A stretch of DNA of 42,997 bases from Henriciella sp. (lineage in GTDB: Bacteria > Pseudomonadota > Alphaproteobacteria > Caulobacterales > Hyphomonadaceae). Below the pieces are notes generated by a model. That model worked only from the letters and a program-made list of their open reading frames with translations. It was not told the DNA's origin and made no database searches. Location: positions 25,095 through 68,091 of the forward strand of contig DUBH01000041.1 in assembly GCA_012960415.1 (NCBI GenBank), read 5' to 3'. Shown piece by piece: positions 4,396-8,914 of this stretch. The translations under genes were made by a program, and so were the position numbers. How positions within the stretch are numbered: position 1 is the stretch's first letter; the number at the start of each line of letters is the position of its first letter.

Positions 4396-5148
4396 CTAGT
4401 CGTCGTCGCCTTCCAGATAGCGCTCAGTGAAGTCCATGAACGCGTCCCAGCTCTTCTTGTCGGCAAGCTCCTGATAGCGGTCCGAGCCGAAGACGGTCCA
4501 GGCATGCGGCGCGCCGGAATAGATCTGGACCTCATAGGTCACGCCATCGGTTTCAAGCTGGTCGGCGAGGTCTGCGGCGAGGCTGTTCGGGATGCCGCTA
4601 TCGGCGCCGCCATGCATGACCAGGATCGGCGCTGAGGTCGCGGCATAGTTGGCCCCTTCAGGGGCGTCCAGGCTGCCATGGAACGTGGCATAGCCTGCTA
4701 TGTTCTCACCCTCGTCAGAGCGGGCCAGCTCCAACGTGGCACCGCCGCCAAAGCAGTAGCCCATAAGGATGACGTTCGTTTCACCGGAGGCTTCTCGGGC
4801 CTGTTCTATGCCGCCGAGAATGCGGGCGCGCATCATCTCGCGGTCATTGTAGAGCATGCCGACCTGTTCCTTGCGCGCATCGGTGGTCGCCGGGCGGTTA
4901 CCCTTGCCATAGACATCGATTGCGAAGGCGTCATAGCCCTCATCTGCGATCATTTCGGCGCGGGTCATCTCATATTCATCGAGGCCGCCCCAGTCATGGA
5001 TGATAACGACGAGGCCTTTGGAGTCACGCGTGGCTTCGGCGAGGTAGCCTTCATAGGTCGCGCCATCGACGGTATAGTCGACGGTCTCGCCCGCCTGGGC
5101 GGCGAGGGTGAAGGCCGTGGAGGCGGCAAGGGATGTGAGGAGGCGCAT
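4396..5148 (-). CDS. exported dienelactone hydrolase family protein
   Basis: This 250-aa alpha/beta hydrolase has an N-terminal signal peptide (cleavage near AAQA/GE, residue 19), so it should act in the periplasm. The dienelactone-hydrolase triad is complete: Cys132 in GYCFGG, Asp183 in GGADS and His215 in APHAW. The early HDWGGLDEY segment supplies the oxyanion region. Family members open cyclic esters such as dienelactone, but many exported ones act on unknown esters. An AAGGAAACGC binding site precedes the start at 5148. It is separated by about 146 bases from the divergent LuxR-hydrolase gene, which has a related fold, so a functional link is possible but unproven. Confidence 0.9.
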   Translation of the reverse strand: MRLLTSLAASTAFTLAAQAGETVDYTVDGATYEGYLAEATRDSKGLVVIIHDWGGLDEYEMTRAEMIADEGYDAFAIDVYGKGNRPATTDARKEQVGMLYNDREMMRARILGGIEQAREASGETNVILMGYCFGGGATLELARSDEGENIAGYATFHGSLDAPEGANYAATSAPILVMHGGADSGIPNSLAADLADQLETDGVTYEVQIYSGAPHAWTVFGSDRYQELADKKSWDAFMDFTERYLEGDDD

Positions 5149-5294
5149 GGCGTTTCCTTTTTTGAATGAGTGGACCTTCCGAGAGCTAGGGCGCGGCCCT
5201 TGCGTGCCAAATACGAAGCGTCCCGGAATCCCCCTTGCCAGCTGCCCTGTGCTTGCTGCAACCTTAGCCGCGGATAGCCGCTTTGAGACTTCTC

Positions 5295-7019
5295 ATGGCC
5301 GAGACGACAACGCAGTCGCGATATTTTGAACTCCTGGGCCGGGCCTATGAGATACCGCTCGAGAGCGCGGGTTTTGAAGATTTCCTCGATGCCGCCCATG
5401 ATTTCTTCTGCGCCGACCCGGAGACAGGCGAAGTCTCTGAAGACGTCGCGAAGTTCACGCCTGAAGGTGTCGAGGACCATACAAGCCGGCTGGAACGCAT
5501 TTTCGATGTTGCGCTGAAGGCAGAAGCGCAGGAGGCCGAAACCGATGCGCGCTATCATAGCGTGCTGCGGGTCGCGCCGGGGACGCTGCAGGTTCATGGC
5601 AATGAGGCCGCCGTCGCCCTGCTGGGATGTACCCTGCCCCGTCCGCTGGACGAGCTGCCCTTCGACCATGAAGCCCTCGCGCAGGTCCGCGACACACTTT
5701 CAGAACCTGCACGCGAAGACCGCATCGTCCTTGCGACAGTTGAGGGCAGCGATCCGCGCCCCTGTCTCGCGCTTGTGCAGCCGGGCCGCACCGACGGTGC
5801 GGAAGCCCGCATTTCCCTATCCTTCATTCACTGGTCTGACGGGCTGATTGATCGACTGGGAAAGGCGCTGGGGCTGACCGAGTCCGAAACCGAAGTCCTG
5901 CAAGGGCATCTCGATAACAAGACACCGCGTGAGATTGCCGAGGATCGTGGCCGCTCTCCCGAAACGGTCAAGGTGCAGGCCAAGACCATCCTGAGAAAAA
6001 CGGGCTGCGCGCGCATGACCGACGTGGTGCGGCTTGCGGCCAGCATGTCCTACCTTCTGCGCAAGATGCCCGATGAGCGCCAGTCGAGCCTTGATAGCTG
6101 GGCAACGCCGGCGCGCGCGCTGGAGTATCTCGTGCGCGACGGACGTAATGTGGCTTACTACCGGCACGGGCCAAGCGACGCGAAGACCGCGGTACTTTTT
6201 TCTCATGCGCTGATACAGGGGCCGTTCTTCGCGCCGGCCTTTCTGAACAAGTTGACCCAAGGAGGTGTGCGCCTTCTTGCGCAGTCCCGGCCGGGTTACG
6301 GCTACACGGATCCGCCCAAGTCAGCTGAGGAATTTGAGTCCGATACGGTAGCCGATGCGCTGGCGATGCTTGAGACTGAGAGTGTCGACAAGGTCCACGT
6401 GGTCGGCCACCAGCTTGGCACCAGCCATGCGTTTCGTATCGCGCATGCACTTGGCCCGCGCGCCCAGTCCCTTGTCTTCATCAATGGCGGCATTCCGCTT
6501 CAGGAAAAACATTATGCCAGCATGGACAGGCGGGTACGGTTCGCCGCCATGGCGACCCGCCATGCGCCCTCGATCCTGAAAATGGCGAATGCCCTTGGTA
6601 TTCGCAGCTTCAAGAAGAAGGGGGTGCGCGCCTTCCTAATCGACCGGTACACCCGATCGGAGGTCGACATGAGAGCCTTGATGATGCCCGGTGTGATGGA
6701 GCTTCACGCCAACGGGACTTTCCATGCCTGCGAGCAGGATGGCATACCTTTTTTTCTCGACGAGAGGTCGAAGCATTCAGACTGGTCAGCCGACGCACAA
6801 AGGGTCGGCTGCCGCCAATACTGGTTGCAGCCCGAAGACTGCTCAATCCTGGACCCGGAAGCGGTCCGGGAATTTGTTGGGAAGTTGCGCGGCGCCCGGT
6901 TTGAAACCGAGCCGGGCGCCGGCGCCATTATGCTGTACCAAAGGCCTGAACGGGTCGCTGACTTCATACTGGATGCAATCAGCGACACGTCTGATAAGGG
7001 CCGGGCAGTCAGCCCCTAG
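5295..7019 (+). CDS. LuxR-type regulator fused to a non-catalytic alpha/beta-hydrolase domain
   Basis: The 574-residue protein starts at the ATG at 5295; an in-frame TTG at 5283 is an alternative. Residues 1-180 form an acidic domain not recognised. A GerE/LuxR HTH occupies about 191-248 (LTESETEVLQ, REIAED, TVKVQAKTILRKTG). Residues about 275-565 form an alpha/beta-hydrolase domain with an oxyanion-like FSHALIQGPFF and an SRPGYGYTD segment. The nucleophile elbow GxSxG reads GHQLG, so Ser is replaced by Gln373. The usual GAGH near the C-terminus reads GAGA, so the catalytic His is Ala544. The Asp may remain (QPED). The domain is therefore expected to bind rather than hydrolyse a ligand. It is probably a one-component ligand-responsive regulator. 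It ends with a CTAG stop shared with the convergent lipoprotein gene. Confidence 0.85.
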   Translation: MAETTTQSRYFELLGRAYEIPLESAGFEDFLDAAHDFFCADPETGEVSEDVAKFTPEGVEDHTSRLERIFDVALKAEAQEAETDARYHSVLRVAPGTLQVHGNEAAVALLGCTLPRPLDELPFDHEALAQVRDTLSEPAREDRIVLATVEGSDPRPCLALVQPGRTDGAEARISLSFIHWSDGLIDRLGKALGLTESETEVLQGHLDNKTPREIAEDRGRSPETVKVQAKTILRKTGCARMTDVVRLAASMSYLLRKMPDERQSSLDSWATPARALEYLVRDGRNVAYYRHGPSDAKTAVLFSHALIQGPFFAPAFLNKLTQGGVRLLAQSRPGYGYTDPPKSAEEFESDTVADALAMLETESVDKVHVVGHQLGTSHAFRIAHALGPRAQSLVFINGGIPLQEKHYASMDRRVRFAAMATRHAPSILKMANALGIRSFKKKGVRAFLIDRYTRSEVDMRALMMPGVMELHANGTFHACEQDGIPFFLDERSKHSDWSADAQRVGCRQYWLQPEDCSILDPEAVREFVGKLRGARFETEPGAGAIMLYQRPERVADFILDAISDTSDKGRAVSP

Positions 7020-7453
7020 CAGCCCTTGCCAGCATATATCCCCATAAGCGCTGTGCGGCGCAGTTCTGCCGTGCGTGCATTTTCGGCCTGACGCTCGGCC
7101 TCTGCCTGCGCATTCTGCTGCGCAAGCCCCCCTGCAGCATTCGCTGCAAAGCCCAGTCCCGGCACGCGGCCGAGGGCGCCGCTGTAAAGCGCGGCATTCG
7201 TTGCAAGACCGGCAGCCGTGCTGGCCGCTGCGCCGGATGTCTCGGCGTTACGGGCACTCTGGTCAGCCTGCATCATATAGGTGTCCATGCTGGCGATCTC
7301 GGTGCTGAGTGCCTCGCAGGTCATGTCGGCGTCGCCTGGCTGGCTGGCCACGAGACGCGGCGACAGCTCCTGAGAACCGCCAAGCGACGTGGTGGTCGTG
7401 CATGCTGTCGCGGCGAGGCCTGCGACCGAAACGAGAATGAAGTGTCTGAGCAT
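7016..7453 (-). CDS. putative lipoprotein, Ala/Gly-rich
   Basis: The 145-aa product starts at 7453, which has a GGGG AAAC binding site upstream. It opens with MLRHFILVSVAGLAATAC, a lipoprotein signal with the lipidated Cys at 18. The body has a TCEALSTEIASMD helix, then an Ala/Gly-rich stretch (about 80-115) resembling a membrane-associated helix, then a Gln/Glu/Ala-rich helix and a C-terminal GKGC. It is probably attached to the outer membrane facing the periplasm. Function is unknown and no enzyme motif is seen. Its stop overlaps the stop of the LuxR-hydrolase gene within one CTAG, and no terminator separates them. Confidence 0.75.
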   Translation of the reverse strand: MLRHFILVSVAGLAATACTTTTSLGGSQELSPRLVASQPGDADMTCEALSTEIASMDTYMMQADQSARNAETSGAAASTAAGLATNAALYSGALGRVPGLGFAANAAGGLAQQNAQAEAERQAENARTAELRRTALMGIYAGKGC

Positions 7454-7581
7454 TTTTGTTTCCCCCTGAAACTGAAGTGATCGCAATAGATCAGGGGGTC
7501 TTCCGGCCCGCATCACCCTGCCGGGTTAGATGGGCAAAATTTATCGGAAAATTTTGTCGCCGCGCACGACTGCGTGATGTG

Positions 7582-8130
7582 TCAGCGGGACACTTCGCGC
7601 CAAGTTCCGGGCGCAAGATCATCCAGGGACCAGTCCCCGATGCGGATGCGGATGAGGCGCAAGGTCGGGTGCCCGATCGCTGCTGTCATGCGCCGAACCT
7701 GACGATTCTTGCCCTCGCGCAGCCCCACTTCGAGCCAACAATCTGGCACAGTCTTGCGATAGCGCACGGGCGGATCACGCTCCCAGAGGCCTTCAGGGGC
7801 GTCGACCTGCTTTACTTTTGCTGGCCGGGTGCGGCCATCTTTCAGGTCGAGGCCGCGGCGGAAGGCTTCAAGCGCGTCCAGCTCAGGCAGGCCTTCAACC
7901 TGCGCAAGATAGGTTTTCTCTGTCTTGTGCCGGGGGTCGGCAATCCGCGACTGGAGGCGCCCATCATCGGTCAGCAGGAGCAGACCTTCACTGTCCCGGT
8001 CGAGCCGGCCCGCCGGATAAACGCCCGGCAGGTCGATGAAGTCGGACAGGGTCTGGCGCGGGCTTCCCTCTGTGCCCTTGTCGGTAAACTGGGAGAGGAC
8101 GCCGAAGGGTTTGTTAAACGCGATGAGCAT
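7582..8130 (-). CDS. rluE: 23S rRNA pseudouridine synthase RluE
   Basis: The protein converts a uridine of 23S rRNA (position 2457 in E. coli numbering) to pseudouridine. It is a short RsuA-family enzyme without an S4 domain, as RluE is. The catalytic motif GRLDRDSEGLLLLT is at 41-54 with Asp44, and the C-terminal GKNRQVRRMTAAIGHPTLRL block is also very close to E. coli RluE. The FNKPFGVLSQFTD start also matches, which favours the ATG at 8130 over an upstream TTG at 8166. Neither has a convincing binding site. The gene stands alone between a lipoprotein and a calcium-binding protein gene. Confidence 0.92.
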   Translation of the reverse strand: MLIAFNKPFGVLSQFTDKGTEGSPRQTLSDFIDLPGVYPAGRLDRDSEGLLLLTDDGRLQSRIADPRHKTEKTYLAQVEGLPELDALEAFRRGLDLKDGRTRPAKVKQVDAPEGLWERDPPVRYRKTVPDCWLEVGLREGKNRQVRRMTAAIGHPTLRLIRIRIGDWSLDDLAPGTWREVSR

Positions 8131-8230: not shown

Positions 8231-8914
8231 TTATGATGCGCTGTAGGTCATCAGGTATTCGCTGAGCTCAATGTCGCCATCGCTATCAGCATCATACTTG
8301 CCGAAGAGGTCGTCGCCGACTTCAGACCGGTTCTGCCAGTTGCTCCACTCAGACTGCGAGATCATGCCGTCACCATTACCATCAATGGTGAGGAACAGCT
8401 GAACCGCCATCGAGGAGCTGAGCTCATTGCTCGGCACGGTGGTCGTGCTGGTGCGCACGAAATCATCAGCCTCGGCTTCAGTCGTTTCAGCGGTCTCGGT
8501 CGTCATCGTCGCCGTGTCAGTGTCCATCGTCGCTGACGTATCCGTCGTCACATCGGTGTCAGTCGTGACTTCCGCTTCCATTTCGGGCGTTTCAGGCACG
8601 TCCGTAGACATGGTGGTCGTCGTAGACGTTGTCGTAGCCGGCGGCGTGGTTGCGGTCGGTGTCGTCTCAACCACCGGATCATTCATCACGGTCTCGGCGT
8701 CCGGAGTTTCGATCGTCGTGGTGGTGGTCGTGGTTGTCTCTGGCTCGGTTTTTGGCGGCGTCGGCGCATCCGAGGTCTCGACCTCCGTCTCGACTTGGAC
8801 TTCCGCTTCTGCGGTCATGTCGTCAGACGACGAGTCTTCCATGTGGTGGTCGGCGAAAGCCGGGCCGGCGGCCAGAATGGTCGTGGTCGCAAGAGCGGTC
8901 ATGATCTTCTTCAT
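8231..8914 (-). CDS. secreted Thr/Glu-rich protein with two EF-hands
   Basis: The 227-aa protein has a signal peptide (MKKIMTALATTTILAAGPAFA) and a good AGGAGAG binding site. Residues about 22-160 are of very low complexity, dominated by Thr, Glu, Asp, Pro and Val with runs of up to eight Thr, and strongly acidic. The C-terminal 60 residues hold two EF-hand loops: DGNGDGMISQSEW and DADSDGDIELSEY, both with the usual Asp/Asn/Asp-Gly/Glu ligands. It should bind two calcium ions outside the cytoplasm, with the Thr-rich part acting as an extended stalk, possibly glycosylated. Role unknown. Divergent from the MAPEG gene. Confidence 0.87.
   Translation of the reverse strand: MKKIMTALATTTILAAGPAFADHHMEDSSSDDMTAEAEVQVETEVETSDAPTPPKTEPETTTTTTTTIETPDAETVMNDPVVETTPTATTPPATTTSTTTTMSTDVPETPEMEAEVTTDTDVTTDTSATMDTDTATMTTETAETTEAEADDFVRTSTTTVPSNELSSSMAVQLFLTIDGNGDGMISQSEWSNWQNRSEVGDDLFGKYDADSDGDIELSEYLMTYSAS

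Follow-up and report, generated by a model that had tools for sequence, protein, structure and literature searches.

A LuxR-type regulator fused to a hydrolase domain without catalytic residues, and a candidate operator beside it, in Henriciella

The stretch of DNA analysed here (the window) comprises 42,997 nucleotides of contig DUBH01000041.1 from a 3.5 Mb genome of Henriciella sp. (GCA_012960415.1). An open reading frame at positions 5295-7019 of the forward strand, uninterrupted from its ATG, encodes a protein of 574 amino acids in which a PAS-like region, a LuxR-type helix-turn-helix (HTH) and a pseudo-alpha/beta-hydrolase domain are joined, as judged from the frame itself, Pfam and orthologues. 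The regulator is flanked by two genes on the reverse strand: a divergent neighbour for a dienelactone-hydrolase-family protein (4396-5148; PF01738), and a convergent gene for a small lipoprotein of 145 amino acids (7016-7453; lipobox-like LAATAC, recognized by eye). Farther out, an 18-bp element, TAACCCggCAGGGTGATG, lies on the reverse strand at 7511-7528, 57 nt before the lipoprotein ATG. Orthologues of the regulator are found in 10 of 105 genomes of the Hyphomonadaceae, at 52-100% identity (the next match is at 45%). In another search the closest named relatives were Henriciella algicola (88%), H. marina (83%) and H. barbarensis (83%).

The HTH, at residues 194-248 (5874-6038, forward strand), scores 24.1 bits against the Pfam cut-off of 23.5 (PF00196, GerE); GerE is also matched by 25 of 33 family representatives at E 0.01, and 25 of the 71 positions at residues 186-256 are near-invariant within the 31-member clade described below. 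The HTH sits in the middle of the chain and not at its C-terminus, and is followed by the hydrolase domain (residues 278-566; 6126-6992, forward strand; PF12697 and PF00561 above cut-off), where Abhydrolase_6 matches residues 310-556 with 46.2 bits against a cut-off of 26.3. This domain has the predicted fold of an alpha/beta hydrolase: when a fold model was compared with the PDB by Foldseek, hydrolases were returned at a probability of 1.00, with top-hit TM-scores mostly of 0.35-0.47 for what is a weak model (the two fold models came from one method, overlapping input and four-row alignments, with mean pLDDT of 42 and 53). N-terminal to the HTH, residues from about 87 to 178 (5553-5828, forward strand) appear PAS-like by eye, with the motif N103..AA..LLG; the N-terminal region of the regulator itself has no Pfam match, while PAS_8 is found in one of the 33 family members and matches below cut-off in two of four HTH-only relatives. 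An autoinducer-binding domain is absent from the Pfam matches of the regulator (E 0.001) and from the 11 families matched by the 33 members (E 0.01).

The sequence-only reading of this gene had held that two of the three triad residues were lost, the nucleophile being replaced by Gln373 and the histidine by Ala544. Both residues were read correctly and at their canonical places, but the acid has changed as well, so that the observation holds in a stronger form than first stated, with three positions changed. Gln373 (6411-6413, forward strand) lies in the elbow motif GHQLG; in phmmer alignments it stands opposite the GHS serine of chloroperoxidase L and the GHD aspartate of an epoxide hydrolase, which we take to be the catalytic residues of those enzymes, and both low-confidence fold models show a nucleophile elbow there, residues 367-372 forming a strand that gives way to a helix at 373. 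At the acid position the Asp of the 'HGxxD' loop aligns, in an alignment of 110 rows, with Cys516 (6840-6842, forward strand) and not with Asp515; the latter was ruled out as the catalytic acid, being one residue off the acid column and varying among D, E and K across the ten orthologues. The catalytic His position is occupied by Ala544 (6924-6926, forward strand; family alignment). The regulator thus has none of the residues of active hydrolases, whether a Ser, Cys or Asp nucleophile, the acid or the His, and this loss is seen directly; that the protein lacks all catalysis is what such a sequence would predict. Gln373 and Cys516 are present in all ten orthologues, and residue 544 is Ala in seven and Ser in three, so that the three columns read Q/C/A in the seven congeneric orthologues and Q/C/S in the three from the sister genus: the Gln substitution is conserved, as the sequence-only reading asked, and the Ala is not. 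Close homologues with an intact triad, a finding set beforehand as a refutation of that reading, did not occur among the ten.

A wider family was assembled from 167 loci, of which 146 had open frames spanning the HTH and hydrolase parts of the family profile and 110 were left after repeats were removed. A complete set (Ser/Cys/Asp, Asp/Glu and His) is kept by 11 of the 110, all of them distant members, and the others have lost one, two or three of the residues; the nucleophile column is gapped in three. None of the 58 members from the Hyphomonadaceae is intact and all 58 lack at least two of the three residues, against 11 intact and 24 lacking at least two among the 52 from outside, in a sample weighted towards the Hyphomonadaceae by the design of the search. 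The five distant members L128, L129, L143, L153 and L157 (group f188) have complete Ser-Asp-His sets and are possible enzyme-regulators, and four others (L040, L041, L042 and L126) have an Asp nucleophile in AHDIG or AHDVG, His at the base and Ser at the acid position. Family members can be hidden among presumed enzymes: among 20 matching plasmid records listed, 17 are annotated as alpha/beta hydrolase (nine of these being near copies from one species), two as LuxR-type regulator, and one is unannotated.

In a quick tree of the 110 rows, built with the triad columns omitted, the regulator falls in a clade of 31 with SH-aLRT support of 100; over the whole tree the intact or degenerate label needs eight changes, on long branches whose deep order is unsure and which do not give the direction of change. 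Within the clade, residue 373 is Gln in 29 members and His in two, and Gln308 (6216-6218, forward strand), within the motif H304-x3-Q-G-P-F-F, is found in 31 of 31. The most conserved positions of the domain include Q308-G-P-F-F, S331-R-P, Q373 and S377-H378 (Ser377 in 29 of 31), presumably located at the oxyanion loop and nucleophile elbow of the known fold. Residue 544 drifts (A 10, S 6, T 5, V 4 and N 3 of 31, plus others). That the residue at the nucleophile position is new yet nearly fixed, while the base position drifts, suits a pocket for binding more than a site of catalysis.

Of the two neighbouring genes, it is that for the lipoprotein whose distribution follows the regulator. At E 1e-5 a lipoprotein match is found in 10 of the 105 family genomes, nine of them strong (E 5e-49 or better); all nine lie inside the ten orthologue genomes, directly adjoining the regulator and convergent with it, and the tenth, a weak match at 33%, is in a genome (G026) that does not carry the element. 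The one orthologue genome without the lipoprotein (G007) has an apparent deletion remnant at that spot, and the loss there may be recent, since part of the 5' flank is kept beside the element. Just upstream of the gene in the window, an inverted repeat, CCCCCTGA/TCAGGGGG, at 7462-7498 could hide the lipoprotein's ribosome-binding site; it is intact in three loci (L004-L006), nearly so in L095, and not in L097 or the sister genus. No Rfam match for a structured RNA was found across 5000-7700 at E up to 1. The stretch at 8231-8914 encodes a protein rich in Thr/Glu/Ala repeats with, by eye, an EF-hand-like stretch near its end, which diverges faster than its neighbours among six congeneric loci.

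The element was recognized when the sequences preceding the lipoprotein gene in nine loci were aligned, as a block, TAACCCNNCAGGGTGATG, that stands out in otherwise diverged sequence. It is dyad-like, readable as TAACCC-N4-GGGTgA. Against the three loci of the sister genus its ungapped identity is 0.89, with all 16 specified bases kept, while the four flanking bins range from 0.16 to 0.48. The tenth orthologue locus, that of G007, which lacks the lipoprotein and was not used in deriving the pattern, also carries the element. In the window no other site comes within 3 mismatches of the pattern, which the element itself matches at 0 mismatches, and 17 of 100 shuffles contained a site within that limit; in the window's own genome the 16-bp core (14 specified bases) has one site at no more than 1 mismatch, which by itself proves nothing because the reversed control has two. 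Each of the 10 orthologue genomes holds a single exact copy of the 18-bp pattern; the 95 other family genomes hold none, nor do 383 further genomes of alphaproteobacteria (385 were searched, two of which belong to the family set and hold the element), and the reversed pattern gave 0 matches in both the 105-genome and the 385-genome set. Co-occurrence with the regulator is thus 10 of 10 for the element and 9 of 10 for the lipoprotein, and may rest on few independent events because the ten genomes belong to two genera (seven and three). The element is a candidate operator, to which the regulator may bind; it could also be a part of the lipoprotein promoter that another factor recognizes. In all ten loci CTATTG, CTACTG or CTATGG is found 20-22 nt beyond the element, and the CTATTG of the window (7484-7489, reverse strand) is, at a guess, the -10 hexamer of the lipoprotein promoter, which would place the dyad centre about 43 bp before the start point. 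A position near -43 is the usual place for LuxR-type activators.

We hypothesize that the protein is a one-component regulator of the LuxR type whose sensor is a pseudo-hydrolase and which acts at a single element, most likely activating the lipoprotein gene, a reading that we hold to be probable without being secure. The hydrolase domain, stripped of nucleophile, acid and base, would serve as a binding or sensor module, in which the conserved polar residues Gln308, Gln373, Ser377 and His378 would surround the former active site; a small molecule bound there, perhaps together with the PAS-like region, would set the activity of the HTH at the 18-bp dyad-like element that precedes the convergent lipoprotein gene. 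An ester, lactone or hydrophobic acyl signal, as the sequence-only reading suggested, would be a possible ligand. Of the possible modes, activation appears most likely because of the spacing that follows if CTATTG is the -10 hexamer. Ligand binding by the hydrolase domain, DNA binding at the element and activation of the lipoprotein gene are inferred, and the sensor role as a whole is plausible. The single-copy element and the lipoprotein make such a function directly testable, with one protein, one site and one target.

The alternative that survives best is that the hydrolase domain, being dead, has no more than a structural role or one in protein-protein interaction, sensing being left to the PAS-like region. 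Such a role would not demand exact chemistry at the His position, which indeed varies, and section 2.9 of a 2024 survey of alpha/beta hydrolases (PMC11878206) describes inactive hydrolase folds in protein contacts (Arb2). A mere scaffold, however, would need no nearly fixed Gln there, and the conservation of Q308-G-P-F-F, S331-R-P, Q373 and S377-H378 leaves this explanation unlikely, if still the most serious competitor to a sensor domain.

It had also been proposed that the divergent dienelactone hydrolase is the regulator's target. In all seven genomes of the genus that carry the orthologue the two genes lie side by side in divergent orientation, and conserved blocks lie inside the gap between them in six loci; this adjacency says little, however, because several other neighbours are also syntenic within the genus. 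At E 1e-40 the dienelactone hydrolase is found in 14 of the 105 Hyphomonadaceae genomes, seven with and seven without a regulator orthologue, and has no match at that threshold in the three sister-genus genomes that carry one; its distribution does not track the regulator. The 18-bp element, moreover, has no copy in the gap, which is also the regulator's own promoter region (5149-5294). A search for an operator there turned up a short palindrome (5265-5276) and blocks conserved at the level of the genus, and nothing more, and the gap was rejected as its location; the blocks, at 5184-5240 (AGCTAGGGCGC-like, CCAAA and CTTGCCA; six loci), are perhaps core promoters, and a promoter scan of 5100-5330 found no promoter. 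Control of the dienelactone hydrolase is improbable on these grounds, and the lipoprotein is the better target candidate: of the sequence-only reading, the fusion of a LuxR-type HTH to a hydrolase fold without catalytic residues stands, and the link to the dienelactone hydrolase is not supported.

Slightly less probable again is that the domain is still catalytic through unusual residues (for example His378, His477, Asp515 and Cys516), which would make the protein a bifunctional enzyme-regulator. His378 is kept in 31 of 31 clade members, His477 and Glu480 in at least 30 of 31, and Cys516 is fixed in the orthologues; some distant members, moreover, have complete Ser-Asp-His or Asp-Asp-His sets. 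Against this, the elbow is without a nucleophile and the base position without a His, residue 515 is D, E or K in the orthologues, and residue 516 is C in 15, D in 13 and A in three members of the clade.

An artefact, whether a pseudogene, a frameshift or a misaligned active site, can be set aside as having hardly any likelihood: the acid loop could be off by one residue (Asp515), but the elbow is agreed on by alignments and fold models, no internal stop lies within the match in any of the ten orthologues, and pseudogene and frameshift are ruled out by these stop-free frames together with a dN/dS of 0.07-0.13 within the genus. The values for the hydrolase domain against six congeneric orthologues are 0.070, 0.072, 0.082, 0.078, 0.068 (where dS, at 2.6, is saturated) and 0.133, and by the same measure all three parts of the protein are under purifying selection. 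As a control the window's own genome was surveyed: of its 38 PF00561 matches, 30 were fetched, of which 24 match the domain profile and 23 are distinct; with two regulators and two proteins without a letter in the column excluded, 19 stand-alone hydrolases could be scored, and 18 have Ser or Asp at the 373 column (Leu in one), while the genome's three LuxR-fused copies (the window regulator, L002 and L003) all have Gln. The earlier judgement that the substitutions are hard to explain as an error is borne out by this control, by Gln373 in ten of ten orthologues and by the low dN/dS.

Relatives of the regulator elsewhere often adjoin genes for exported or surface products: autotransporters in L207 and L212 (with a two-partner-secretion protein in the latter), an OmpA-family protein in L218, large Laminin_G/HYR proteins in L220 and L221, and VWA proteins on plasmids of Ruegeria, Peteryoungia, Pseudosulfitobacter and Agrobacterium. 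Metabolic and housekeeping genes, and genes without a Pfam match, are also numerous among the neighbours. When 67 loci were scored with a crude signal-peptide rule, their 865 neighbour genes having been reduced to 651, the product looked exported for 41 of the 108 genes next to the regulator and for 57 of the 332 lying four or more genes away (p = 1.2e-5); the test is post hoc and its removal of repeats keeps the copy nearest the regulator, favouring near counts, and the enrichment is no more than suggestive. Footprints in four other clades, scanned over the 400 bases past the stop with coding sequence included, showed 16-mers above shuffles and no similar dyad; the 18-bp element lies about 490 bases past the regulator's stop, beyond the range of that scan, whose outcome is therefore of little weight.

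At L107 (7649-13927) and L108 (7922-14331), which come from two bacterial families, two LuxR-hydrolase genes stand together beside a CS1/TcfC-type usher gene, identified by Pfam in L107 and by homology in L108; small exported proteins that match no Pfam family are encoded alongside. On plasmids of four genera (L168, L169, L173 and L174) a LuxR-hydrolase gene annotated as hydrolase is near a VWA-domain gene and genes for unknown proteins, and in L169 and L174 an AraC-type gene lies between the two. The two paralogues in the window's own genome (L101, 9597-11957; L102, 10205-11611) each have an exported Sel1-like neighbour (weak Pfam matches), the two neighbours being 21% alike over 146 amino acids. 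L128 and L129, of the distant group with complete triads, adjoin Laminin_G/HYR proteins.

As a tentative generalization, perhaps somewhat less likely to be right than wrong, PAS-like/LuxR/hydrolase proteins may form an undescribed class of one-component receptors spanning several lineages of proteobacteria. Enzyme pockets would have turned into sensors repeatedly in this class, and each receptor would serve just one adjacent gene, whose product is exported or lies at the surface, in the present clade through a single operator per genome. The graded family, with 11 of 110 members complete and others with one to three losses, would offer a natural series from enzyme to sensor. Searches of the open-access literature, which leaves subscription journals mostly outside, gave no title or start of an abstract that names a LuxR-hydrolase fusion, which is weak evidence of absence; in the 2024 survey 'luxr' and 'hth' occur 0 times, and its section on additional domains names no DNA-binding domain (PMC11878206).

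Among known systems, the LuxR/FixJ (GerE) one-component regulators share with our regulator a GerE HTH above cut-off; the regulator differs from them in that its HTH is central and not C-terminal, in having no match to an autoinducer-binding domain, and in its extra hydrolase domain. The best match of the family profile in the PDB, over positions 297-567 (E 1e-38), is 9wlv, named as a pimeloyl-ACP methyl ester carboxylesterase, which shares the fold but has GWSGG at the elbow, no HTH and 290 amino acids. A hydrolase fold attached to a signalling output is also found in mycobacterial cyclases such as Rv1900c, where the output is a nucleotide cyclase and not, as here, an HTH. In Bacillus subtilis the alpha/beta hydrolase RsbQ works with the PAS-domain phosphatase RsbP, as a separate protein with an intact triad that acts on the phosphatase. 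The regulator resembles this pair in that a hydrolase fold would signal together with a PAS module (putative in our case) in bacteria, and differs in carrying the HTH on one chain and in having lost the triad; a passage of PMC6022639 terms RsbQ a bacterial signaling protein. An intact Ser-His-Asp triad, which is defining for receptors of the RsbQ/D14/KAI2 type, is absent from the regulator. The plant receptors GID1, D14 and KAI2, in which a hydrolase pocket has turned hormone receptor, are not known to carry a fused DNA-binding domain; the triad is retained in D14 and KAI2 and the Ser in GID1, whereas in the regulator Ser, acid and His are all replaced and an HTH is fused. These plant proteins are precedents for the conversion of a hydrolase pocket into a receptor, and the bacterial counterpart described here would be a DNA-binding fusion.
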